Assembly (NCBI GenBank): GCA_041228335.1
Contig: CP166130.1
Location: forward strand, 2,451,001 to 2,515,000
Direction: 5' to 3'
DNA length: 64,000 nucleotides
Source of the DNA: Alphaproteobacteria bacterium LSUCC0684
Lineage (GTDB): Bacteria > Pseudomonadota > Alphaproteobacteria > Puniceispirillales > UBA1172
Shown: positions 11,998 to 63,747 of the stretch, in pieces
Position numbering within the stretch: position 1 is the first letter of the stretch
Layout: every line of letters begins with the position of its first letter
Program-made: the position numbers and the translations under genes
The notes under the pieces: generated by a model
What the model was told of the DNA's origin: nothing
The model's database searches: none
Seen by the model: only the letters and a program-made list of their open reading frames with translations

Positions 11998-13134
11998 TTA
12001 ATCCTCTTCGCCGAACATTTTACGGATTCGATTCATGAAACCGGTGGATTCGGGGTTCTGTTTTCCGCTGTTGGCGGCAAATTCCTCGAGAAGAGATTTC
12101 TGCTTTGCCGTCAGATTGACCGGCGTTTCAACATGAATATCAACATAGAGATCACCTCGCGCACGTCCCTGAAGCCCTGGCATGCCCTTACCCTTGAGTC
12201 TCAGCCGGTGGCCGGATTGCGTGCCGGGCTGAATGCTCACCCTGGCCATCTTGCCATCGAGATTGGGCACATCAATCGTCCCGCCCAGGGCCGCGGTTGC
12301 CATCGGCACCGGCATGGTCAGCAGGAGACTTGTTCCATCACGCTCAAAAATTTCATGCGCCTTCACATCGATGAAAATATAGAGATCACCGGGGCTGCCA
12401 CCTCGCAGGCCGGCTTCCCCTTCGCCTGAAAGACGAATGCGCGTGCCGATATCAACACCGGGCGGGATCGTAACATTAAGCGTGCGGTTTTTCTGCACCC
12501 GTCCCTGGCCACCGCAGCTGCTGCAGGGAGAGGATATCGTCTGCCCCATCCCCTGACACGACGGGCAGGTGCGTTCAACCGTGAAAAATCCCTGCTGGGC
12601 CCGAACTTTGCCATGCCCGCCGCAGGTGCTGCAACTGGTGGGGCTCGTTCCCGGAGCAGCACCACTGCCCTTACAGGTCTCGCAAGACGTGGCAACCGGG
12701 ATTTTGATTGTTTTGGAATCACCGGTAAAAGCTTCTTCAAGGCTGATCGTCATATCATATCTGAGATCAGCACCCTTGGTGTTGCCTCGGCGGCCTTGAC
12801 CACGCCCGCCCATGAAATCGGAGAACATTTCATCAAAGATATCGGAGAAGCCGCCGGCACCGAAACCGCCAGCCCCGAAGCCAGCACCGCCACCAAATCC
12901 GCCACCCTGTTCGAACGCCGCATGGCCAAGACGATCATAGGCCGCGCGTTTCTGCTCGTCCTTCAGCACTTCATAGGCTTCGGTTGCTTCGCGGAATTTT
13001 TCTTCAGCCGCGCTGTCATCCGGATTGCGGTCCGGATGATATTTCATGGCCAGTTTGCGATATTCGGACTTGATCGTTTTTGGATCAGCATCCTTCTTCA
13101 CGCCAAGCACTTCATAATAATCACGTTTGGCCAT
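11998..13134 (-). CDS. dnaJ: Chaperone protein DnaJ
   Basis: DnaK co-chaperone. J domain with HPD at 33-35, then a Gly/Phe-rich segment (about 75-110), then four zinc-binding repeats ([32 protein letters not shown]), then the client-binding C-terminal domain. The 378 residues match type I DnaJ. It lies 60 bp downstream of dnaK on the same strand and probably shares its heat-shock promoter. Confidence 0.98.
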
Positions 13135-13194
13135 ACTGAACCGCTACATCTGCTATGGTGAGTGAAATCCGGGCCGCTGAAAGGGCAAGAGGTC

Positions 13195-15117
13195 TCAGGA
13201 ACCGCTTGCCTTCTTCTGATCGTCGTCGCTGTCCACCTCTTCGAATTCCGCATCGACGACGGTATCGTCGCTGGCGTTTTCGTTCTTGGCAGCATCGTCA
13301 TCCGCCTCATCGGCACTGGCCGCATATGCCGCCTCGCCCATTTTCATGAGCGCTGCGGAAAGCGCCTCGGTCTGGGGGCCGAAATCCTCATTGGATTCGT
13401 CTTCCAGTGCTTCCTTGAGGTCAGCCACCGCCTTTTCCACATCGGCTTTCAGCGCCTCATCGGCCTTGTCACCGAGATCCGCAAGGGATTTTTCAGCCCC
13501 GTGAACCAGCGATTCCGCCTGGTTGCGGGCTTCGACCTTTTCCCGACGCTTTTTATCTTCTTCGGCGTTGGCTTCAGCATCCTTGACCATCTGCTCGATA
13601 TCATCATCGCTAAGGCCGCCAGAGGCCTGGATCTTGATCTGCTGTTCCTTGCCGGTCGCCTTGTCCTTGGCGCTGACATTGACGATACCGTTGGCGTCGA
13701 TATCAAATGTCACCTCGATCTGCGGCACGCCGCGCGGGGCGGCAGGGATGCCGACAAGATCAAACTGACCCAGGAGTTTATTGTCCGCCGCCATTTCACG
13801 TTCACCCTGGAAAACCCGGATCGTCACCGCGGTCTGGTTGTCGTCGGCGGTGGAGAATGTCTGGCTTTTCTTGGTCGGGATGGTGGTGTTGCGGTCAATC
13901 AGCCGCGTAAACACCCCGCCAAGGGTTTCAATACCAAGTGAAAGCGGGGTTACATCAAGTAGCAACACATCCTTGACGTCGCCTTTGAGCACACCGCCCT
14001 GGATTGCCGCGCCGCTGGCCACCACCTCATCCGGGTTGACCCCGCGATGCGGTTCGGTCTTGAAGAACGACTCCACCGCTTCGATGATTTTCGGCATCCG
14101 GGTCATGCCGCCAACGAGAATGACTTCGTCAATGTCCCCGGCCTTGATACCGGCATCCTTGAGCGCTGCCTTGCAGGGCTCGATGCTGCGCTGGATCAGA
14201 TCATCGACAAGGGATTCAAGCTTGGCGCGCGTGAGTTTGACGTTAAGGTGTTTCGGCCCGGACTGATCTGCCGTGATGAAGGGCAAGTTGACTTCGGTCT
14301 GGGTCGCGCTGGAAAGCTCGATCTTTGCCTTTTCCGCCGCTTCTTTCAATCGCTGGAGGGCAAGCTTGTCTTCCCGCAGATCAATGCTGTTGCCCTTTTT
14401 GAATTCATCGGCCAGGAAATCGATGATCCGCTGGTCGAAATCCTCCCCGCCAAGGAATGTATCCCCGTTGGTGGATTTGACTTCGAACACGCCATCGCCG
14501 ACTTCGAGGATCGAGACATCAAAAGTCCCCCCGCCAAGATCATAAACGACAATGGTGCCGGATTCCTTCTTGTCGAGGCCATAGGCGAGGGCGGCGGCGG
14601 TCGGCTCATTGATGATACGCAACACATCAAGGCCTGCAATCTTGCCAGCATCCTTGGTGGCCTGACGCTGGGCATCGTTGAAATACGCTGGCACGGTAAT
14701 TACCGCTTCGGTAACGCTTTCACCGAGATATGCTTCGGCATCCTCTTTCAGTTTGCGCAGAATAAAGCTCGAAATCTGGCTGGGTGAATATTTTTCACCA
14801 TGCGCCTCGACCCAGCTATCGCCATTTTCAGCGGCTACCGTCTTATAGGGAACAAGTTTGGCGAAATGCTTTGACGCCTTGTCGGTATGCCGACGTCCGA
14901 TCAGCCTCTTGATGGCGAAAAGCGTATTTTCCGGATTGGTCACCGCCTGCCGTTTGGCCGACTGGCCGACGAGCCGTTCGCCATCCTCGGTAAAAGCCAC
15001 CATTGATGGAGTTGTGCGGCCACCCTCGGCGTTTTCAATAACCTTGGCGGATGTTCCGTCCATGACCGCAACGCAGGAATTGGTTGTACCCAAGTCAATG
15101 CCAATCACTTTACCCAT
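13195..15117 (-). CDS. dnaK: Chaperone protein DnaK (Hsp70)
   Basis: ATP-dependent chaperone, 640 residues. The N-terminus [14 protein letters not shown] carries the phosphate-binding loop. The substrate domain and an acidic, Ala/Asp/Glu-rich tail complete the bacterial DnaK plan. A longer open frame exists, but ATG 15117 matches the family and follows an AGAGGG ribosome site at 6 bp. An RpoH-type promoter lies about 80 bp upstream. Confidence 0.98.
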
Positions 15118-53960: not shown

Positions 53961-54191
53961 GGTTATATCCTCTTAGGGTTGTTATACGCCGTTATTGGCT
54001 ATCTCTATTTACATTAGATTATCTTAATAAATTAATTAATAATTAATCTGTGCAGAATATTTTCATCCCGGTTGTTGTATTTTTGCAACACGCCTGAATA
54101 TACGCCGCACTTTGATGTATTTCACCTGTATCAGTTCATATACATTCTTTGAATGAATATATAAATTTACGAAAAATTAGGAAATTTTTTG
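53961..54191. other. AT-rich divergent intergenic region, porin / TPR-sulfotransferase
   Basis: 231 bp, strongly AT-rich. It holds repeated TTAAT motifs around 54025-54050, including one TTAA-N7-TTAA, which is a CtrA-like pattern that could arise by chance here. It also has a short inverted repeat CATTC-TTT-GAATG at 54143-54155. I cannot place -35/-10 elements with confidence. Confidence 0.4.
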
Positions 54192-55730
54192 ATGCAACAC
54201 AAACCCGATCCAGAGCAACTAAAGCAACTTTATCTTCAAGGAAGATTTGATGAAATTGTCAGAAATGCCAAAGCGTTCAGCAAGGCCAATCCAAAAAACC
54301 ATGTTGTTTTCACTATTCTGGGCGTTGCCTTTGCAAAATCAGGGCTGACCAAATCATCTGTTGAATGTTTCAAGCGCGTGGTGAGACTCTGTCCAGATTC
54401 GGCGGAAGGGTTCAACAATCTTGGCAATGCCTTGCGGAACCAGGGCCAACACAAAGACGCGTTGCGTGCGTTCGATCAGGCAATTCAACTAAAGCCGGAT
54501 TATGCCCATGCCTATAACGGCCGGGGAAGTATTTTCAGTGATCTGGATAATATGGAAGAATGTATAAAATCATTCGAAAAAGTGCTGGAGTTGCAGCCAG
54601 ATCATGTAATGGCCATGGACAACCTAGGCCAGGCATATCAGAATCTGGGTGATTTTGAAAAAGCCGAAGAAATGTTCCGCCGGGCGATAAAAAGTGAACC
54701 TGGCCATGCCGAAGCACATTACCACTTAAGCCGGGTGCATCGCTATGCTGCCGAAGATCACCACCTTGAGCAGATGCGGGCGCGACTTCGTGAACACCAT
54801 CCCGACATAAAAGAGAAAGTGTTCCTGAATTTTGCGCTTGGAAAGGCTTGCTCGGATATCAGGAATTACGACGAGGCATTCGAACATTGGGCAGAAGGCA
54901 ATTTGGCGTTCAAGGCGAAAATCGGGTATCACGCTGAAAAGGATGATGTGATTTTTGAGCGCATTCGCACCTGGGCTGAGAACATGCCTGAATTTGGTGT
55001 CGAAAATGACACGGGACTTGTATTCATTCTCGGCATGCCCCGTTCCGGCACATCCCTTGTTGAGCAGATTCTTTCAGGTCATAGCAGGGTCCATGCAGCA
55101 GGGGAGCTGGTTCATTTGGCTCGAGGAGTTGAGAAATTCTGCGCAGATAAAGATCAGTTGACCCGGCAAATGCTTAAAAATGTTCGATCCTATTATCGGC
55201 AGAATATTTCAGGTATGGGTCAAGGAAAACAGTTCATCACCGACAAAACGCCGCAGAATTTTCGCTGGATAGGGCTGATCCGGACAATTTTTCCTGGTGC
55301 CAGCATCATCCATCTCAAAAGGCATCCCATGGCGGTATGCTTTTCCAATTTCAGGTATTTTTTCCAGACAGAAGGCATGAGCTACAGCAACAGTCTGGAT
55401 GATATCGGCAGATATTATTTGCAATATGATAAACTCATGGAGTTTTGGTATGAGAAATATCCAGGCGATATCATCACGGTCGACTACGCCAGGCTCACCG
55501 AGAACCCGCGAGAAGAAATTGAAAACCTGTTGTCGCATCTCGGTCTTGAGTGGCAGGAAAGTTGTCTTGAAATTGAAAAAAACCAGCGTGCCGTCAGGAC
55601 TGTTTCAAACACACAGATACGTAGCAAGATCTACACCAAAAGTTCAGAAGAATGGCGGCACTATGAAACCCATCTTGCCCCGCTTAGGAAAATGCTTGAT
55701 CCAATTCTCAAAAGGCAGGGCTGGGAATAA
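54192..55730 (+). CDS. TPR-repeat sulfotransferase
   Basis: 512 residues. About five TPR repeats (35-185; e.g. AEGFNNLGNALRNQGQHKDA) precede a sulfotransferase domain with the PAPS 5'-phosphosulfate loop GMPRSGTSL at 281-289 and the 3'-phosphate motif HLKRHPMAVCFS around 374-385. The acceptor is unknown. No signal peptide, so cytoplasmic. Start is ATG 54192 after a T-run; no ribosome site. Convergent with the next gene, three bases apart. Confidence 0.9.
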   Translation: MQHKPDPEQLKQLYLQGRFDEIVRNAKAFSKANPKNHVVFTILGVAFAKSGLTKSSVECFKRVVRLCPDSAEGFNNLGNALRNQGQHKDALRAFDQAIQLKPDYAHAYNGRGSIFSDLDNMEECIKSFEKVLELQPDHVMAMDNLGQAYQNLGDFEKAEEMFRRAIKSEPGHAEAHYHLSRVHRYAAEDHHLEQMRARLREHHPDIKEKVFLNFALGKACSDIRNYDEAFEHWAEGNLAFKAKIGYHAEKDDVIFERIRTWAENMPEFGVENDTGLVFILGMPRSGTSLVEQILSGHSRVHAAGELVHLARGVEKFCADKDQLTRQMLKNVRSYYRQNISGMGQGKQFITDKTPQNFRWIGLIRTIFPGASIIHLKRHPMAVCFSNFRYFFQTEGMSYSNSLDDIGRYYLQYDKLMEFWYEKYPGDIITVDYARLTENPREEIENLLSHLGLEWQESCLEIEKNQRAVRTVSNTQIRSKIYTKSSEEWRHYETHLAPLRKMLDPILKRQGWE

Positions 55731-55733
55731 CGC

Positions 55734-57539
55734 TCAGGCCTGATAAACCGGCAGGCCGAGGCGGTGTTGGTGTTTTTGCAATGACGCGAGCAGGGGGCTG
55801 AGAAAGTCTTCGTGTTTCCGCCAACCCTGGAGTGAACTGGTGCTGATGGGCTGTTGAACCTGTGTTGCACTTGCGGTGCGGGAAAAATAGTCTTTCCCCC
55901 GATCGCTTTCCTTAAACTGGTAGCCATCAAGACCGAGATAACTGAAGATTTCTGCGCTAAGCTCTTCCGGCTGCATGACCAGTTCATCATAGCTGACCGA
56001 GAGGATACGGCGGCCAAATTTTTCGGTGAAAAAAGCCATCAATTTCTGATAATGAGCATAGTACTGTCCAAGGGATTTCATGGAATAACAGTAATTGTGG
56101 CTCTGTTCAAAATTGGCCCGATAAAGAGACCAGCAGTTATCCATTGGATCTCGGTGGACATGAAGTATTTTCGCATCTGGAAAAATCTTGAGGATGACGG
56201 CCGTCCATTTGAAATTGTGAGGCAGTTTATCAATCGCCCAGTTATTTTCCTTGAACAGAAATGCTGTCTTTTCACAATATAACGTGGCTATATCATCCAG
56301 CGTTGACGGGCTGACATGTTCAGCTGCATCCGGAGCATTCAATAATGTTTGTTTGCAAATGACATTGAAATAGGGAAGTTCATCCCCCGCCACAATATCA
56401 GGGTGGCTTGCAAGGATGGATTCAAGAAGCGTAGTGCCAGATCTGGGCATACCGATAATGAAAATACGCTTATCGTCGGTGTTGGTTGCTGGCGATATAT
56501 CCGGCAAGGACAGACTGATCTCTTTGATCCGTTTGAATTCTAGCCGTGTTTTATAATTATCATAGGGTCGTTGTCGAGAAACCTGATCGTTGCCTTGGCG
56601 GTAATAGTGATAGGCTTTTTGGATGTTTTCCTGACCATGATGAAAGTCAGCCAGGGCAAAAAGGCCCCGATCAATACTGGACAGAGGTATTTGTTTATCA
56701 TAAAATTGTTCGAGCTGATGAAATACTTTCGCAGCTTTTGGTGATGATCTGGCGCCCAGGCTGATAAGATTAAAATAGCTCTTACAGTCGTAAGGGTTGT
56801 TTTCTATTGCTTGATGGAACAGATCCTCCGCTTGGTCAGCGTAGCCCGTATATAGAAAGACAAGGCCCAAATTGTTCAGCGCCAGTTGATATGTTGGACA
56901 TAATTTCAGGCAAGCTTCAAAATCTGATTTCGCTTTATCAAATTCATTAAGATGCAGATACACCATCCCCCTGTTGTTGAGGGATCTGAAATTATGTGGA
57001 TCAATGATAAAAATCTCATCATATATTTCTAGTGCTTCGCCAAAAAGCTGCTGGCAGAACAGTGTAACGGCCAGATTATCCATTATATCGATATGATTTG
57101 GTTTAAGTCTGGATGCCAGGATTAGCTGGTTTGCAGATTTTTCATATTCATGCTTCTGCCGATAAATAACGCCAAGATTCATCCTGAAGCGGAAATCCTT
57201 CGGATTTATCTTGATTAGTTTGAGATAGAGTTGTTCAGCAGAATAGAATTGACCCATCTGGCTATGGCAAAGAGCAGCACCAAAGAGGTAATCGACATTT
57301 TGAGGATTGGTTTTTTGCAGCTGAAGATATGATTTCAACGCCAGTTCAAATTCTCCCGCATTACGATGAATACGTGCATGGAGGGCAAGAACAGCTTCAG
57401 TTTTGGGATTGCTTTTTAACAATTTCTTGGCAGCATCCATGGCTTTTTGGTGTTGGCCTTGGGCGGAAAGATGCTGAATTCCTTGGATATCAATCATTGT
57501 CGATTTATGCGATCCGGGCACTCTCATTGATAAAGGCAT
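55734..57539 (-). CDS. TPR-repeat sulfotransferase (second, distinct)
   Basis: 601 residues. A longer TPR superhelix (about 20-260, six to seven repeats) is followed by a sulfotransferase domain: GMPRSGTTL at 363-371 and HVHRDPMDNCWS around 460-471. It is only distantly similar to its neighbour outside the motifs, so not a recent duplicate. ATG 57539 has AAGGTGG upstream; an ATG at 57497 is an alternative. It follows the STT3 gene on the same strand with 28 bp between, so the two may be one transcript. Confidence 0.9.
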   Translation of the reverse strand: MPLSMRVPGSHKSTMIDIQGIQHLSAQGQHQKAMDAAKKLLKSNPKTEAVLALHARIHRNAGEFELALKSYLQLQKTNPQNVDYLFGAALCHSQMGQFYSAEQLYLKLIKINPKDFRFRMNLGVIYRQKHEYEKSANQLILASRLKPNHIDIMDNLAVTLFCQQLFGEALEIYDEIFIIDPHNFRSLNNRGMVYLHLNEFDKAKSDFEACLKLCPTYQLALNNLGLVFLYTGYADQAEDLFHQAIENNPYDCKSYFNLISLGARSSPKAAKVFHQLEQFYDKQIPLSSIDRGLFALADFHHGQENIQKAYHYYRQGNDQVSRQRPYDNYKTRLEFKRIKEISLSLPDISPATNTDDKRIFIIGMPRSGTTLLESILASHPDIVAGDELPYFNVICKQTLLNAPDAAEHVSPSTLDDIATLYCEKTAFLFKENNWAIDKLPHNFKWTAVILKIFPDAKILHVHRDPMDNCWSLYRANFEQSHNYCYSMKSLGQYYAHYQKLMAFFTEKFGRRILSVSYDELVMQPEELSAEIFSYLGLDGYQFKESDRGKDYFSRTASATQVQQPISTSSLQGWRKHEDFLSPLLASLQKHQHRLGLPVYQA

Positions 57540-57567: not shown

Positions 57568-59715
57568 TTATCGCAGAACCTCATAAACTCGAAAATCGGG
57601 GTACTGGTCAATGATTAGTTCAAGACGGTTTCGATCATATAATCCTAGCCGGTAGAGCTGATTGAAGGTGGAAATCCAGTGCCGGTTAGGAATGAGAAAT
57701 AGGCGTGTTTCCCTGTTATCGACTTTTTCCAGGAGAACTGTATGCCAGCCCGGTCTCCCATAATCACGGTTTTGCCGACCAAAACCGTTCTCTGTCTGAA
57801 CAAGCCGCGCCAGAACAGGTTCATTATCAACGGTTCCATTCAAGAGGTTGAAGGTTTTATCTCCACATTCAAGAATATGTTCAGATGACTGGATACATCT
57901 GAGCCTGTAATATCCATGCTCATTCATCAGGTCAGTTGAAGGTGCCTGATTCCGCTCCAGATCATGCAACCCGTTTCTGGCCATGGAATATAACCACCCC
58001 CCCATTTTTTCGGTAACAACGATATAGATGGGTTTATCAGGAGGGTTATCCGGCCTTGAGGAAATAGCGGCTTCAAATAACGTGAGTGACGAGCTGTTGG
58101 ATTTGATGCCTTTATTTCCTTCTTGGGCAATAAATCTAAGGCCGTTGATCAACATATTTGGATTCTTATCCACAAACCCACGGCCGATGATATATGCTCT
58201 GGGGCTGCGCTGATTTCCCGGATCATGAAGGGTTGGCAGGCCGCTCTTGAAATGACCTAGATACCCATAATCCCACCAGGATGCTATCACTCCGCCGCGG
58301 CCGTTATCATATGCGCCAAGCTTGGTAAAACCTTCTACCACTTGAGCAGGAAACGAAGGATTTGGTGATTTCAGGCCGCGATGATACGCGATATCCAGTT
58401 GCAACATGGCAGCCAGCAATATGGTGGCTAACCCGATACCGATAACCGGCAGATACGATGCAAGACTTTTTGTTGTGTAATTCTCATCATTTTGGGTGTT
58501 CTGCCTCAATATCTGCCTCAATATTCGCAAAAGAGATAAAATCATCCAACCGAAGCCAAACCATAGTATCGGCGCGGCATAAAAAGCGAAACGCTGGCCA
58601 ATAATATTGCTAAAAAGTCCGATTGTCAGAAAAGGCAGAAAAACTGTGGCCTGAACCGGAAATATTACCGCCCAGATACCGAAACTCACCAGTCCGGCCA
58701 ACCCGATCCATGGAGATCCGAAAATATTAACGAGCATCTTGAAAAAATTTATATCGGATAATTCGATGATCGTTTCATACGGATCAGGAAAAGCCAGCAC
58801 AGATGTTTCAACCAGATTTACTGAATAAAGCCCAATGCGATCGAGAAAACCAAAGATCTGGGGCTCAACGGCGCTGGCAAAAGATAAAGGATTGATGAAA
58901 AGAATAAAGATACCGGTATAGATCAGTGCCGATTTGAAGCTGAGACGGCTGAAAAGAGTAGCCAGAAAAACTATAAGAGGGAAAATCAGCACAAAAAGGC
59001 CCTGGTCATACCACCAGTGGAAGAGATGAAACAGTCCTGCTGCAAGGAGGATGAAGAAAATCCCCCGTCGCCAGTCTGTCTGGCGGCAGGCAAGAAGGAT
59101 CGCGCCTAAAATCAAGGAGATGAAAAAGAGAATGAGCTGGTCGGTATCGATCCGGCCGATTGATGTGCGCACGAAATAGGCATGGGAAAGCCCGGCACCA
59201 AGCCCGGCAATTGCCCCTTCGGCCGGGAACCCGGCGACCCAGAAACAGAGGCCAATGGCAATGGCGGTCAGGAATGCCGTAAGGGGGATCATGGCGTTGC
59301 CCGCCATCAGAAGATCACCGTTATATTTCACATCCGCGAGATGCCGGATAATCACCGAGAGAAGAGGGATATCAAGAGCACCATCAACCTCGGATGGCTC
59401 TTCGGCATGGTCAGGCCAGCTTCGGGATTGATTAAAATCAAACTTTCCTTCCTGATAATCACGGGCATAAGAAAGGAAGTACCCGGCATCGGTGGTGCTG
59501 ACCAGGGGTGAGCCATCGGCGAAAAAGACGGTTTTATTCGCCTGCCATTCCTGCCACTGGCTGTCGCGGGCATCATAATTGATGAGCCCTGCCAGCAGGA
59601 TGAGCGCCACCGCCATAAGATTATAGATCCAGCCGGTATCGGATTTCATCCAGGGTTGACGCAACCGCACATAAACCAGACCGATTACATGCTCTGGGTC
59701 TTGTTTGGCTGACAT
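57568..59715 (-). CDS. STT3/PglB-type oligosaccharyltransferase
   Basis: 715 residues from ATG 59715 (AGAGG upstream; a longer frame to 59799 is less likely), close to the length of Campylobacter PglB. About 10-13 membrane helices (30-440) precede a soluble periplasmic domain. Catalytic features are all visible: TTDAGYFLSYARD with Asp76 in the first loop, RTSIGRIDTDQ (Asp190, Asp192), T-I-I-E at 315-318 matching the TIXE motif, and WWDYG at 480-484. It therefore resembles enzymes that transfer lipid-linked glycans to Asn. No flippase or glycosyltransferase is adjacent. Unusual in alphaproteobacteria. Confidence 0.87.
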   Translation of the reverse strand: MSAKQDPEHVIGLVYVRLRQPWMKSDTGWIYNLMAVALILLAGLINYDARDSQWQEWQANKTVFFADGSPLVSTTDAGYFLSYARDYQEGKFDFNQSRSWPDHAEEPSEVDGALDIPLLSVIIRHLADVKYNGDLLMAGNAMIPLTAFLTAIAIGLCFWVAGFPAEGAIAGLGAGLSHAYFVRTSIGRIDTDQLILFFISLILGAILLACRQTDWRRGIFFILLAAGLFHLFHWWYDQGLFVLIFPLIVFLATLFSRLSFKSALIYTGIFILFINPLSFASAVEPQIFGFLDRIGLYSVNLVETSVLAFPDPYETIIELSDINFFKMLVNIFGSPWIGLAGLVSFGIWAVIFPVQATVFLPFLTIGLFSNIIGQRFAFYAAPILWFGFGWMILSLLRILRQILRQNTQNDENYTTKSLASYLPVIGIGLATILLAAMLQLDIAYHRGLKSPNPSFPAQVVEGFTKLGAYDNGRGGVIASWWDYGYLGHFKSGLPTLHDPGNQRSPRAYIIGRGFVDKNPNMLINGLRFIAQEGNKGIKSNSSSLTLFEAAISSRPDNPPDKPIYIVVTEKMGGWLYSMARNGLHDLERNQAPSTDLMNEHGYYRLRCIQSSEHILECGDKTFNLLNGTVDNEPVLARLVQTENGFGRQNRDYGRPGWHTVLLEKVDNRETRLFLIPNRHWISTFNQLYRLGLYDRNRLELIIDQYPDFRVYEVLR

Positions 59716-59905
59716 TTCGGCCTCTCGCACTTCAAATCCACTACCCCCAGGGTAAACCCGAAAAAGGCTCTTGCCAGAGCATGCCAGCGGACGCGACAAA
59801 AAGCAAATTGATCTGAAGAACAGGAGCTTGCCTCTTCCAAGTTTTCATGAGGCAGTCTAGGCTGGTCACACCGGAAAACCGTTCCAGCTATAGCGTAAAG
59901 GATAG

Positions 59906-60589
59906 ATGAAGTTCATGGACCGCAGCATAGAAGAGTCAATCAAGGAAATCCGGCAGGAAATGGGCAAGGCAGCCCTTTCTGCCGGTCGTCACATCGACGA
60001 TACCACGCTTGTGGCGGTATCCAAGAAACAGCCCGATGACCGGATTGATGCCGCGCTCGATGCCGGCCTCAGGGTATTTGGGGAAAACCGTGTTCAGGAA
60101 GCCCAGGGGCGCTGGGCCCACCGCCGGCAAACCATCCCTGATCTGTCTTTGCGTCTCATTGGCCCGCTCCAGACAAACAAGGCGGCAGAAGCGGTTGCGC
60201 TGTTTGATGTGATCGAGACGCTGGATCGGGAAAAGCTGGCCCGCGTGCTTGCAGCTGAAATGGAAAAGCAGGGCCGAGCTCTTGACTGCCTCATTCAGGT
60301 CAATACCGGCGAAGAAGAACAGAAATCCGGCATTTCCCCACGCGAGGCTGTTGCTTTCAGCCATTTCTGCCGGGATGATCTCGGGCTCCGAATAACGGGG
60401 CTGATGTGTATTCCGCCGGTATCCGAAGAAGCGGCGATGCATTTCGCGCTCCTGGCAAAACTCGGACGTGAAGCCGGGTTGCCCCATCTTTCCATGGGCA
60501 TGAGCGCGGATTTTGCCGAGGCAATCCGGTTTGGCTCAACCCATGTCCGGGTTGGCTCGGCACTCTTCGGGGAAAGACCTCCAGCCTGA
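59906..60589 (+). CDS. YggS/PLPBP-family pyridoxal-phosphate homeostasis protein
   Basis: 227 residues, single-domain TIM barrel binding PLP. The PLP-lysine is in LVAVSKKQP, then FGENRVQEAQ, HLSMGMSADFAEAIRFGSTHVRVGSALFGER. It has no known enzymatic activity and buffers PLP. ATG 59906 or 59915 could be the start. In relatives this gene is close to leuS/DUF3576; here the surface island lies between. Confidence 0.95.
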   Translation: MKFMDRSIEESIKEIRQEMGKAALSAGRHIDDTTLVAVSKKQPDDRIDAALDAGLRVFGENRVQEAQGRWAHRRQTIPDLSLRLIGPLQTNKAAEAVALFDVIETLDREKLARVLAAEMEKQGRALDCLIQVNTGEEEQKSGISPREAVAFSHFCRDDLGLRITGLMCIPPVSEEAAMHFALLAKLGREAGLPHLSMGMSADFAEAIRFGSTHVRVGSALFGERPPA

Positions 60590-60611
60590 AGGTGTATCCT
60601 GGCAGATTATC

Positions 60612-61733
60612 CTAGTCGATGAGATGCCCGGTCCGGGTCTTCTTGGTTTCGAGATAGTTCTCGTTATGTGGATTCCGTCCGGCCAGAAGGGGAATACGTT
60701 CCACCACATCCACCCCGGAAGACCGGACCTGCTCGATTTTATCGGGGTTATTGGTCATCAGGCGAATGGCGCCATGACCAAGCTGGCGGAGCATTTCGGT
60801 CGCGGGCAGAAAATACCGGTGATCGGTCTCAAACCCCAGCGCATGATTGGCCTCGACCGTATCAAGCCCCGCATCCTGCAGGGCATACGCACGGAGTTTG
60901 TTGACAAGGCCTATATCCCGGCCTTCCTGCGCAAGATAGATAAGGATTCCGCCGCCGTTATCGGCCATCTGCCGGATGGCGGTGCGAAGCTGGGTGCCGC
61001 AGTCGCATTTAAGGCTACCCAGAATATCGCCGGTGATGCATTGCGAATGAATCCGGACAAGCGGAGGTGTAGCCATCTGGCTGCCATCTTCGGGATGGAT
61101 CAGCAATGCAAAATGCTCCGTGCCTCCATCAAGGGGGCGAAAGATGGCAATCTCCGCACCTTCCGCATCTTCGAGCGGTAGCCGGGCACGGGCAGCCTCC
61201 CGGAGCAGGTTGGCCGAAAGGGCATCAAAAGACCGGATTTTATCTTCATCAAGAATAAGAACACCGCGATCCTGCGCCCAGCGATGCATTGCCCGCTCAT
61301 CTTTAAAGGACATATGCGCCGCCAGCGCTGCCGGCATCAGGCGGGCGGCCCGCATCACCATCAGTGCCAGACTGGCCATGCTGGTTTCGCCCTCAGGCAG
61401 AACATTGAGCCCGCGGAGATCCGTTTGCATTGGCAGATCACCGATCAGGCCGAGTATGTCTTCGGGTTGAAGGCGTTCCGGCAGGATGATCGAACAGGCA
61501 ACGGCCGATGCTTTGGGCCGGAACCCGATCGCTTCCGCCCGCTGGGCTGAAATCAGCAGATACGGAGCCGAAGACGACTGTTCCGCCAGCGCCGCCAGCC
61601 CGCTGCCTGAAACCTGCTCGGCGGCACGTATGAGTCCGATATAGCCGGAATTGGCACATACCAGAACCGGCGAGCCCCGCCGGAGATCAGCGATGGCACG
61701 GTGAACAGATTGCAGATCGGCGGCGTTTGACAT
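60612..61733 (-). CDS. ribA: GTP cyclohydrolase II with degenerate RibB-like N-terminus
   Basis: Riboflavin pathway. 373 residues from ATG 61733. The C-terminal half is a standard RibA: zinc ligands C232, C243, C245 in HSQCITGDILGSLKCDCG, and LAQEGRDIGL. The N-terminal 190 residues resemble the size of DHBP synthase but the acidic active-site loop (RExEGD) is absent (NSGYIGLIRAAEQ instead), so only the RibA activity is expected. Confidence 0.93.
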   Translation of the reverse strand: MSNAADLQSVHRAIADLRRGSPVLVCANSGYIGLIRAAEQVSGSGLAALAEQSSSAPYLLISAQRAEAIGFRPKASAVACSIILPERLQPEDILGLIGDLPMQTDLRGLNVLPEGETSMASLALMVMRAARLMPAALAAHMSFKDERAMHRWAQDRGVLILDEDKIRSFDALSANLLREAARARLPLEDAEGAEIAIFRPLDGGTEHFALLIHPEDGSQMATPPLVRIHSQCITGDILGSLKCDCGTQLRTAIRQMADNGGGILIYLAQEGRDIGLVNKLRAYALQDAGLDTVEANHALGFETDHRYFLPATEMLRQLGHGAIRLMTNNPDKIEQVRSSGVDVVERIPLLAGRNPHNENYLETKKTRTGHLID

Positions 61734-61807
61734 GCCAATTCCTAACTGGTTTAATGTTTGATTTACCCTGATTCTTGCCAAATTCCAAGCATCGGCAAGA
61801 ATTTGGT

Positions 61808-61823
61808 AATCAATTTATTGATT
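61808..61823. promoter_or_regulatory. Perfect inverted repeat in the ribA-response regulator gap
   Basis: AATCAAT-TT-ATTGATT, a 7-2-7 palindrome in the 185-bp divergent region between ribA and the response regulator. It is an operator candidate; which protein binds is unknown. Confidence 0.4.
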
Positions 61824-61918
61824 GGATTTGCGCAATGTTCTAATATGAAATTGTCGCTGAACCCGCACCCATTGTTAGCCCAGCTTGGGGTTTTCAACAA
61901 CTGGAAAGCACAGGATCT

Positions 61919-62596
61919 ATGGTTAAAATCCTTGCTGTCGATGACGATAGCCATCTTCTGGAAACACTGGTGCGCCAACTTTCATCTGGAACGGATTTTG
62001 ATGTAACCGGCGCCGAAACCATCGCTCAGGCGAAAGACAGGCTTCAAGAAATCGAACCTGATCTGATCCTGCTTGATGTCTCTCTGCCGGATGGCGACGG
62101 CCGGGATGCCTGCCGGTGGATACGGGGGAAAGGATATACGATCCCGATCCTGATGCTCACCGCACAGGATGGAGAGCTTGATACGATCGAAGGGCTTGAG
62201 GCCGGGGCCAATGACTATATCGCCAAGCCACTCAGGCTGGGAGAACTGATTGCCCGCATCAGGCTTCACCTTGATCAATATCAGGCGCGCGCCGATGCCC
62301 GCATCACCATCGGAGCATTTGTTTTCAGCGCGGGCAGCAAGACACTCACCCATCGTGAAACCGCCAAGGATCTGTCCCTGACGGAAAAGGAAACCGCCAT
62401 TATCAAATACCTTCTGAAACGAGAGGGGGCCGAGGTTGGCAAAGTCGAGCTGCTTGAAAATGTCTGGGGATATAACGAGCGCATCACCACCCACACGCTG
62501 GAAACACATATATACCGGCTGCGGCAGAAAATTCATCTGATCGATGAAAGCCCGTTTCTTTTGACCCGGAACAAAGGCTATTGCCTCAGCCTTTGA
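61919..62596 (+). CDS. OmpR-family response regulator (orphan)
   Basis: 225 residues. Receiver domain with acidic pocket DDD at 8-10, phospho-acceptor Asp53 in LLDVSLPDGDG, LTAQDG and AKPL. The C-terminal winged-helix domain has LTEKETAIIKYLLKREGAEV and THTLETHIYRLRQKI. No sensor kinase is adjacent. The DNA target is unknown; the palindrome upstream may be an autoregulatory site. Confidence 0.93.
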   Translation: MVKILAVDDDSHLLETLVRQLSSGTDFDVTGAETIAQAKDRLQEIEPDLILLDVSLPDGDGRDACRWIRGKGYTIPILMLTAQDGELDTIEGLEAGANDYIAKPLRLGELIARIRLHLDQYQARADARITIGAFVFSAGSKTLTHRETAKDLSLTEKETAIIKYLLKREGAEVGKVELLENVWGYNERITTHTLETHIYRLRQKIHLIDESPFLLTRNKGYCLSL

Positions 62597-62627
62597 CGAT
62601 ATCAATTGGAAATGGGGAAAGATTAGC

Positions 62628-62702
62628 TGGCTGGGGCGGTAGGATTCGAACCTACGGTACACGGTACCAAAAACCGCTGCCTTACCACTTGGCTACGCCC
62701 CA
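62628..62702 (-). tRNA. trnQ: tRNA-Gln (anticodon TTG)
   Basis: 75 nt including a genomically encoded CCA. Acceptor stem TGGGGCG pairs with CGCCCCA, the TTCGAAT T-loop is present, and the anticodon loop TTTTGGT puts TTG at 62670-62668. The sequence closely resembles bacterial glutamine tRNAs. It is downstream of the response regulator on the opposite strand. Confidence 0.97.
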
Positions 62703-62823
62703 GCAAGCAACGCAACATAGCGGCTTGCGATTAAGCGTTCAAGTCACTTTATCGGATTTTTTTCATGCACCATTACGCTCGAGGATATAATCAGTGCCGG
62801 GATGGCCTGATCGCCATTTTCCT

Positions 62824-63747
62824 TCAGGTTGAAATACCGCAAACACCGCCGGCCCAGCACCATCCCGGTATCTTTTCAGATGATTTCAGCGCCGATATGG
62901 CAGCATCGGCATCGGTAAACAGAGCAAAGCAGGTAGCGCCGCTGCCGCTCATCCCCGATGCAATAAACCCGGGGCAGGATTTCATGGCGGTGAGGTCATC
63001 AAGGCTTTTGGCAATGCCCGGGGCAACCGTGATTGCCGGTAAAAGCAGATCATTGCCACCGGTGATCCAAGCGCCCAAGGCAGAAAGATTTGCTGATCCG
63101 GGAAAGGGATGAGGCGTTGAATAGAGTTTCTGGGGCGCATCGCAAGACCCATCATCAATGGCGCCGAACGCGGCAAACACATCTCTTGTGGCAACCTTGG
63201 TCCCATTATTTACAAGGACAATCCCAAGGTTTGTGATGGCGGGCAGCGGTTCAATCAGCTCCCCTATGCCGCGCATGCGCCACATCCCGCCCTCAACAGC
63301 CTTGAGGCAGACGGGCACATCGGCGCCAAGACCAAGGGCCATATCCGCAAGCGCGGCCGGAGCAAGAGGTGTTGGCGCAAGACGGTTGAGCAATCGCAGC
63401 ATGGCCGCTGCATCGCTTGATCCGCCACCTATTCCCGCCGCCACGGGCAGGTCTTTGCGAAGCGTAATCTCAAAAGCCTGGTTCCATCCCGTAGCACCCC
63501 GGAAAGCGGTCAGGCTTTGCCAGACACTGTTTTCAGCTCGCGGCGCATCAGCGAGGTCCTCAGCAAAATCACCGGTAATCTCCAGCTGATCGATATCGCC
63601 GGGCTTGAGGCTGATCCGATCGCCGATGGCGGCAAAAATCACGGCCGAATCAAGCATGTGATACCCGTCCTTCCGGCGGCCGGTAACCGCCAGCGTGAGG
63701 TTGATCTTGGCGGGGGCGGTTTCGTGGTGGGCAGGCGTGTTCGGCAT
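62824..63747 (-). CDS. ispE: 4-diphosphocytidyl-2-C-methyl-D-erythritol kinase
   Basis: MEP isoprenoid pathway GHMP kinase. 307 residues: APAKINLTLAVTGRRKDGYH near the start, the ATP loop PVAAGIGGGSSDAAA, and SGMSGSGATCFALF. The start codon overlaps the stop of the TPR gene by one base (TGATG), a conserved pair in alphaproteobacteria. Confidence 0.97.
   Translation of the reverse strand: MPNTPAHHETAPAKINLTLAVTGRRKDGYHMLDSAVIFAAIGDRISLKPGDIDQLEITGDFAEDLADAPRAENSVWQSLTAFRGATGWNQAFEITLRKDLPVAAGIGGGSSDAAAMLRLLNRLAPTPLAPAALADMALGLGADVPVCLKAVEGGMWRMRGIGELIEPLPAITNLGIVLVNNGTKVATRDVFAAFGAIDDGSCDAPQKLYSTPHPFPGSANLSALGAWITGGNDLLLPAITVAPGIAKSLDDLTAMKSCPGFIASGMSGSGATCFALFTDADAAISALKSSEKIPGWCWAGGVCGIST

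Follow-up and report, generated by a model that had tools for sequence, protein, structure and literature searches.

N-glycosylation of proteins from a lipid carrier was, as of 2016, thought to be limited among bacteria to the delta- and epsilonproteobacteria (PMC4973528), the Aquificae having been added to the groups with bacterial N-glycosylation in 2015 (PMC4894442). In the latter study, 24 candidate homologues of PglB, the oligosaccharyltransferase (OST) of Campylobacter, were tested in E. coli; by its account, all of them came from epsilonproteobacteria, deltaproteobacteria and Aquificae, and thus no enzyme of the alphaproteobacterial order SAR116 was among them. The PglB homologues of Geobacter, Desulfovibrio and Aquificae resemble the enzyme presented below in being distant bacterial OSTs, some active and relaxed at the −2 position of the sequon, a comparison made by description (PMC4894442). 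In C. lari PglB, Arg331 interacts with the acidic residue at −2 (PMC7226087); however, the relaxed homologues retain this arginine, which alone is therefore not decisive for the −2 rule (PMC4894442). At the other end of the sequon, OSTs were sorted in 2013 by their DK/MI motif into a Lys type, DxxKxxx(M/I), and an Ile type, MxxIxxx(I/V/W) (PMC3703281). In PglB, the second signature residue of this motif and WWD make the pocket for the sequon Ser/Thr, a role for WWD that is also given in PMC7226087, and all PglB proteins are stated to carry the Ile-type MI motif; STT3 and part of AglB have the DK motif with a Lys-type pocket, whereas other AglB proteins have the MI motif (PMC3703281).

The window, by which we mean the whole 64,000-nucleotide stretch of DNA analysed here, derives from an alphaproteobacterium, as the preliminary description had it, and more precisely from a member of the SAR116 order. 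Among its open reading frames is one whose translation, from an ATG at 59715 on the reverse strand, gives a product of 715 residues (Table 1), a length shared with Campylobacter PglB, as had been remarked; since the frame is open upstream as far as a TTG at 59799, the start codon is unproven. The product is confirmed as an OST of the STT3/AglB/PglB type by family, a superfamily that we take to be CAZy GT66. It scores 24.2 bits against PF21436 (STT3-PglB_core; curated cut-off 23) and is borderline for PF02516 (STT3 N-terminal; cut-off 24.5), with 25.2 bits in the genome frame and 23.6 on the 715-residue protein, and a phmmer search of the PDB returns C. lari PglB with an E value of 5e-8. Moreover, in a direct scan of an alignment (A1) of 26 SAR116 proteins, namely that of the window and 25 others with 26-43% identity to it, PF21436 matches 26/26 at E 0.001. 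Together with the retention of the catalytic residues in all 26, the phmmer and PF21436 results exclude chance as a basis for the assignment. The PglB model itself (NF050801) yields 61.5 bits (E 5.6e-17), far short of its equivalog cut-off of 1300; judged by its scores, the product is a member of the STT3 superfamily and no PglB equivalog. The original designation as an STT3/PglB-type enzyme thus stands for the superfamily, given the fold and the invariant landmarks, and lapses where it would imply an equivalog of PglB.

Table 1. Coordinates in the window of the STT3-type gene, selected codons within it and its neighbours
Feature	Coordinates	Strand	Evidence or remark
STT3-type oligosaccharyltransferase, 715 aa	57568..59715	-	Pfam, PDB phmmer, alignment, fold model
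D76 codon, loop-1 Asp, aligned with Asp of Campylobacter NDGY	59488..59490	-	D in 26/26 (A1), 48/48 (A2)
D190-T191-D192, D-x-D motif	59140..59148	-	26/26 A1; A2: D190 47/48, D192 48/48
T315-I-I-E318, TIxE-type catalytic Glu	58762..58773	-	E 26/26 and 48/48; pairs with E319 of C. lari PglB
N330, opposite R331 of C. lari PglB (−2 acidic-residue reader)	58726..58728	-	Variable in SAR116, R 8/26
R375, opposite R375 of C. lari PglB (contact to pyrophosphate)	58591..58593	-	26/26 and 48/48; role according to PMC7226087
W480-W-D-Y-G-Y485, putative acceptor +2 pocket and active site	58261..58278	-	26/26 and 48/48
M571-x-x-W574-x-x-x-M578, DK/MI motif place, Trp as second signature residue	57982..58005	-	W 31/31 SAR116 read, 0/39 others
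TPR-sulfotransferase gene	55734..57539	-	Starts 28 bases downstream of STT3 stop, same strand
Conserved neighbourhood yggS, ribA, response regulator, ispE	59906..63747	.	Relatives have the order ispE-STT3-regulator-ribA; site empty in genomes lacking STT3

The landmarks listed in the preliminary description (D76, D190-T-D192, T315-I-I-E318 and W480-W-D-Y-G484) lie exactly where it placed them in the translation. D76, D190, D192, E318, R375 and W480-W-D-Y-G-Y485 are invariant in A1, and all of these residues bar D190 are likewise invariant in a second alignment (A2) of 48 bacterial sequences, nine from SAR116, including that of the window, and 39 from outside the order; the sole row of A2 without D190 is that of a Nitrospirae MAG (L074). 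The phmmer alignment to C. lari PglB pairs E318 with E319, WWDYG 480-484 with 463-467, R375 with R375 and N330 with R331. Residue placement here follows from sequence alignment to PglB and the global fold match.

The comparison with PglB by structure prediction that had been proposed was run, and an AlphaFold2 model of the full-length protein, built with A2, is confident (pLDDT 89.6, pTM 0.90). It presents both parts of an OST fold, a GT-C membrane domain followed by a periplasmic domain at the C terminus, and the top three Foldseek matches are all PglB structures. VIA-align gives C. lari PglB (PDB code: 5ogl) as the best match, with a Z score of 33.9 and an rmsd of 3.1 over 635 residues, covering residues 25-714 of the model. 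Lower values are obtained for human STT3A (25.2) and full-length AglB (20.5-21.6), and again for yeast Pmt4 (19.1, residues 24-452 only), ArnT (16.6) and the C-mannosyltransferase Dpy19 (15.8). Thus, the window protein resembles Campylobacter PglB (PDB codes: 5ogl, 6gxc and 3rce) in length, in fold over 618-636 aligned residues and in the positions of the Asp, D-x-D, Glu, R375 and WWDYG, although the two are only 18-19% identical; archaeal AglB and eukaryotic STT3 share the fold (Z 20.5-25.2 among the full-length chains listed) but are just 11-14% identical to the window protein.

One departure from PglB lies in the presumed acceptor pocket. At the DK/MI place, the window protein retains the spacing of the motif, but has Trp where PglB has Ile, and so does not conform to MxxIxxx(I/V/W). 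Position 574 is Trp in all 26 rows of A1 and in five extra genomes (G072, G086, G088, G096 and G098), giving 31/31 of those read; this count leaves out five of the 36 genomes of the order that carry the gene (G095, G108, G109, G124 and G125). In the same column of A2, the 39 homologues outside SAR116 have Lys (21), Ile (15), or Thr, Ser and Asn (one each), and never Trp. Residue 571 is Met in 30/31 of the SAR116 proteins and Thr in that of G096. Trp574 is predicted to make a third, Trp-type +2 pocket, and we infer that it would alter sequon choice; a Trp in the acceptor pocket provides a clear and testable prediction on this point. As a separate observation, the Lys found in this column in 21/39 bacterial homologues contrasts with the statement that all PglB proteins are of the Ile type (PMC3703281).

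The −2 position may also be read differently. Only 8/26 rows of A1 have Arg at the place of Arg331, and the window protein has Asn (N330), so that the acidic −2 residue of the Campylobacter sequon is probably not needed by the window enzyme. The SAR116 proteins therefore lack a conserved Arg at this place, as opposed to Campylobacter PglB; yeast Stt3 is also without R331 (PMC7226087).

In a tree, the nine SAR116 rows group together with full support (100/100), and this clade joins the Desulfurellales (L040, L042 and L043), 'Deltaproteobacteria bacterium NP72' (L037) and the Nitrospirae MAG with support of 100/99, the Campylobacter group being placed elsewhere; given the long branches (L066, L067 and L074) and the odd composition of 17 rows, for which the program issued a warning, the exact sister is unsure. 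Within this nearest group, the loop-1 and GR[IV]DTD segments of the Desulfurellales and L037 are similar to those of SAR116, whereas L074 reads G-M-D at the D-x-D; in the 574 column, four of its members have Lys and L074 has Asn, unlike the Trp of SAR116. We know of no functional test of the STT3-type proteins of the Desulfurellales, L037 or L074. At least 164 relatives are found in named genomes, and the best 79 loci, which were kept, include SAR116, Desulfurellales, Thermodesulfobacteria, Aquificota and Campylobacterota, among others.

A protein search, repeated with a profile, places the STT3 gene in 36/136 genomes of the SAR116 order, representing 15/20 genera, and in 18/43 of those with a completeness of 90% or more and a contamination of 5% or less. 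The remaining 100/136 genomes have no copy, two of them (G083 and G135) being single contigs; the 136-genome search found none in one family (f3), nor in the seven genomes of one genus (g4) of the window's own family. In G088 (L137), the gene is split into two overlapping frames of 240 and 504 residues, which represents a frameshift or an assembly error. Additionally, G120 retains a short piece of another STT3-like gene (L252, about 12857-13198 on the reverse strand), in a polysaccharide locus that also has one Wzx-family match and one phosphoglycosyl-transferase match.

In the window, for which the annotation covers 46000 onward, the STT3 gene is surrounded by ispE, a response regulator, ribA, yggS, two TPR-sulfotransferases, a porin, DUF3576 and leuS. 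Unlike that of Campylobacter PglB, it has no adjoining pgl-type glycan locus, its neighbours being housekeeping genes, the two TPR-sulfotransferases and the porin. The TPR-plus-sulfotransferase genes are convergent (54189-55730 on the forward strand and 55734-57539 on the reverse) and directly beside STT3, and G001, G073, G076 and G127 have relatives of them in this neighbourhood; the one on the reverse strand may be co-transcribed with STT3. We clustered 34 contexts, comprising 33/36 of the positive order genomes (without G072, G124 and G125) and L037. The STT3 gene directly follows ispE in 12 of the 34, the response regulator being directly next in nine of these 12, and this ispE-side site is common to three families of the order; the window is the exception among the ispE contexts, in that the gene lies beyond yggS. 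The ispE site was also inspected in ten genomes without the gene. It is cleanly empty in G130 and G131, from the window's family, and in G015 from family f3, where ispE, regulator and ribA are consecutive with no ORF of 80 or more residues among them; in G135 the next conserved gene after ispE is the regulator, and the other six have other or unread ispE neighbours. The ispE placement in 12/34 contexts and the empty sites in three negative genomes point to an ancestral gene lost in places, which is likelier than an accident of the window's genome; loss from the ancestral place would fit the empty sites better than separate gains.

That no flippase or glycan cluster adjoins the gene, as first described, holds for its immediate surroundings, but glycan genes occur elsewhere in the genome and, in several relatives, beside the gene. 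A search of the window's own genome for a flippase, as had been suggested, and for initiating transferases revealed two Wzx-family genes (2239733 and 2196648) and two phosphoglycosyl transferases, one short (2249409) and one long (2525746). Wzy_C is matched three times, at 2254776, 2657902 and 2666293, the last of these below the cut-off. The vicinity of the short transferase encodes a Polysacc_synt_2 protein, a DegT-type aminotransferase and a Wzy_C protein; this set is presumably similar to the first part of a Campylobacter-type pathway. Close to the two Wzx-family genes, we also noted 217-residue frames at L120 (8841-9494, reverse) and L121 (13539-14192, reverse), identical over the first 70 residues, the only part compared, and transposase-like by eye.

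In relatives from other genera, whose neighbouring proteins were named by Pfam scan in some cases and by BLAST cluster in the rest, a sugar-nucleotide epimerase/dehydratase-type gene directly adjoins STT3 in G095, G096, G108, G109, G110 and G123 and is separated from it by two genes in G064, and a Wzy_C gene (O-antigen-ligase family) directly adjoins it in G116 and G120 and is separated from it by one gene in G117; no NCBIfam model passed its cut-off for the G064 epimerase or the G120 Wzy_C protein. Upstream of STT3 in G102, G104 and G106, an EamA transporter is encoded by the second gene and a GT4-type glycosyltransferase by the third. In G000, G073, G074, G075, G076 and G128, the distance from STT3 to a phosphoglycosyl transferase is about 11-15 kb; as the intervening genes, in the stretches read, are mostly housekeeping by eye, we took this spacing for shared synteny and rejected a glycan cluster. 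Nor was any of three Pfam families a convincing partner of STT3 over the 136 genomes: PF02397 is present in 16/36 positive and 36/100 negative genomes, PF01943 in 10/36 and 16/100, and PF04932 in 26/36 and 55/100, where gaps in the incomplete MAGs included blur all three. These co-occurrence counts give no link between the glycan genes of the window's genome and STT3.

Sequon usage was assessed by counting N-x-S/T in signal-peptide proteins from two genomes with the gene (G000 and G078) and two without (G135 and G083), controlled by shuffled sequences and by the motif in reverse, with home-made ORF and signal-peptide rules and about 400 kb per genome plus, for G000 and G078, the window and other loci. 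No excess was observed, the observed/shuffled ratios being 1.05 and 1.00 with the gene versus 1.06 and 0.94 without; with 43-59 exported proteins per genome, the test has low power and is too small to detect a small signal.

Taken as a whole, the data favour a single-subunit, inner-membrane OST of the STT3/AglB/PglB superfamily that would N-glycosylate exported proteins from a polyprenyl-diphosphate-linked glycan, a reading to which we assign a probability of roughly 0.82. What the analysis shows is homology, a predicted fold, catalytic residues that do not vary, conservation across the order, and Wzx-family and initiating-transferase genes in the genome; catalysis, residue roles, periplasmic orientation, the Asn acceptor and a donor common to surface-glycan pathways are carried over from PglB and STT3. 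By analogy, the enzyme would bind the lipid-linked donor, which may be shared with surface-glycan pathways, on the periplasmic side, where R375 would contact its diphosphate. D76, D190 and D192 would hold a divalent metal, D76 and E318 would activate the acceptor Asn amide, and the residue two after this Asn would fit a pocket of W480-W481-D482 and W574; the glycan would be transferred onto exported proteins. The SAR116 protein is a conserved, divergent variant of a known enzyme type, with a putative activity, donor and acceptor rule.

The same fold could instead serve a non-Asn acceptor, with the lipid-linked glycan being moved to lipid, polysaccharide or another residue. Such an activity would be consistent with a +2-reading Trp that lies outside both described pocket types, with the lack of a sequon excess in the exported proteins of the two genomes with the gene over the two without (at low power) and with the fact that the glycan genes adjoining STT3 in relatives belong to surface-polysaccharide-synthesis families. 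Nevertheless, we regard it as improbable, because every catalytic residue and the complete WWDYGY are retained, published work counts WWD among the components of the Ser/Thr pocket (PMC3703281, PMC7226087), and the fold scores of Pmt4, ArnT and Dpy19 fall far under that of PglB. It is more improbable still that the gene is a decaying relic or a recent capture without present function: its patchy presence (36/136), the two-piece copy in G088 and the extra remnant in G120 might suggest as much, but the 715-residue frame is open, the active site is invariant at 26-43% identity, the same ispE-side site recurs in three families of the order, and all nine SAR116 proteins in the tree form a single, fully supported clade. 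Returning to N-glycosylation, we would tentatively go further, at odds somewhat short of even, and suggest that SAR116 has a third kind of OST with a Trp-type pocket, performing N-glycosylation or a near relative of it with a different +2 rule, old in the group, fed by ordinary surface-glycan intermediates in place of a dedicated pgl locus, and easily overlooked.

Set against the taxonomic limits quoted at the outset, an OST of this type is encoded in 36/136 genomes of a marine alphaproteobacterial order. In a literature search that excluded most subscription papers, the matches listed included no report of an alphaproteobacterial or SAR116 enzyme of this type, nor of SAR116 and PglB together; O-linked glycosylation in SAR11 and Prochlorococcus is reported in a paper that names SAR116 (PMC8931226). 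Glycoengineering would profit from an OST that is relaxed or altered by nature. That these enzymes are easily overlooked follows from the direct scan of A1, in which PF02516 matches just 5/26 proteins at E 0.001; surveys with this model alone would miss the other 21, whereas PF21436 finds them all. A Pfam genome search over 385 sampled genomes of the class gave one hit only (G000), but this is not read as a failure of Pfam to recognise the family: the search also missed a protein in G150 that scores 41 bits directly, so its misses are partly due to the search itself and the direct scan provides the fair figure. With a profile, the same 385 genomes yielded the in-order copies of G000, G078 and G088, together with one protein from outside the order, namely this very divergent relative in G150 (L152, 76-2580 on the forward strand), which has 834 residues, reads WWDVG, and owes its 41 bits to the Pfam STT3 model.
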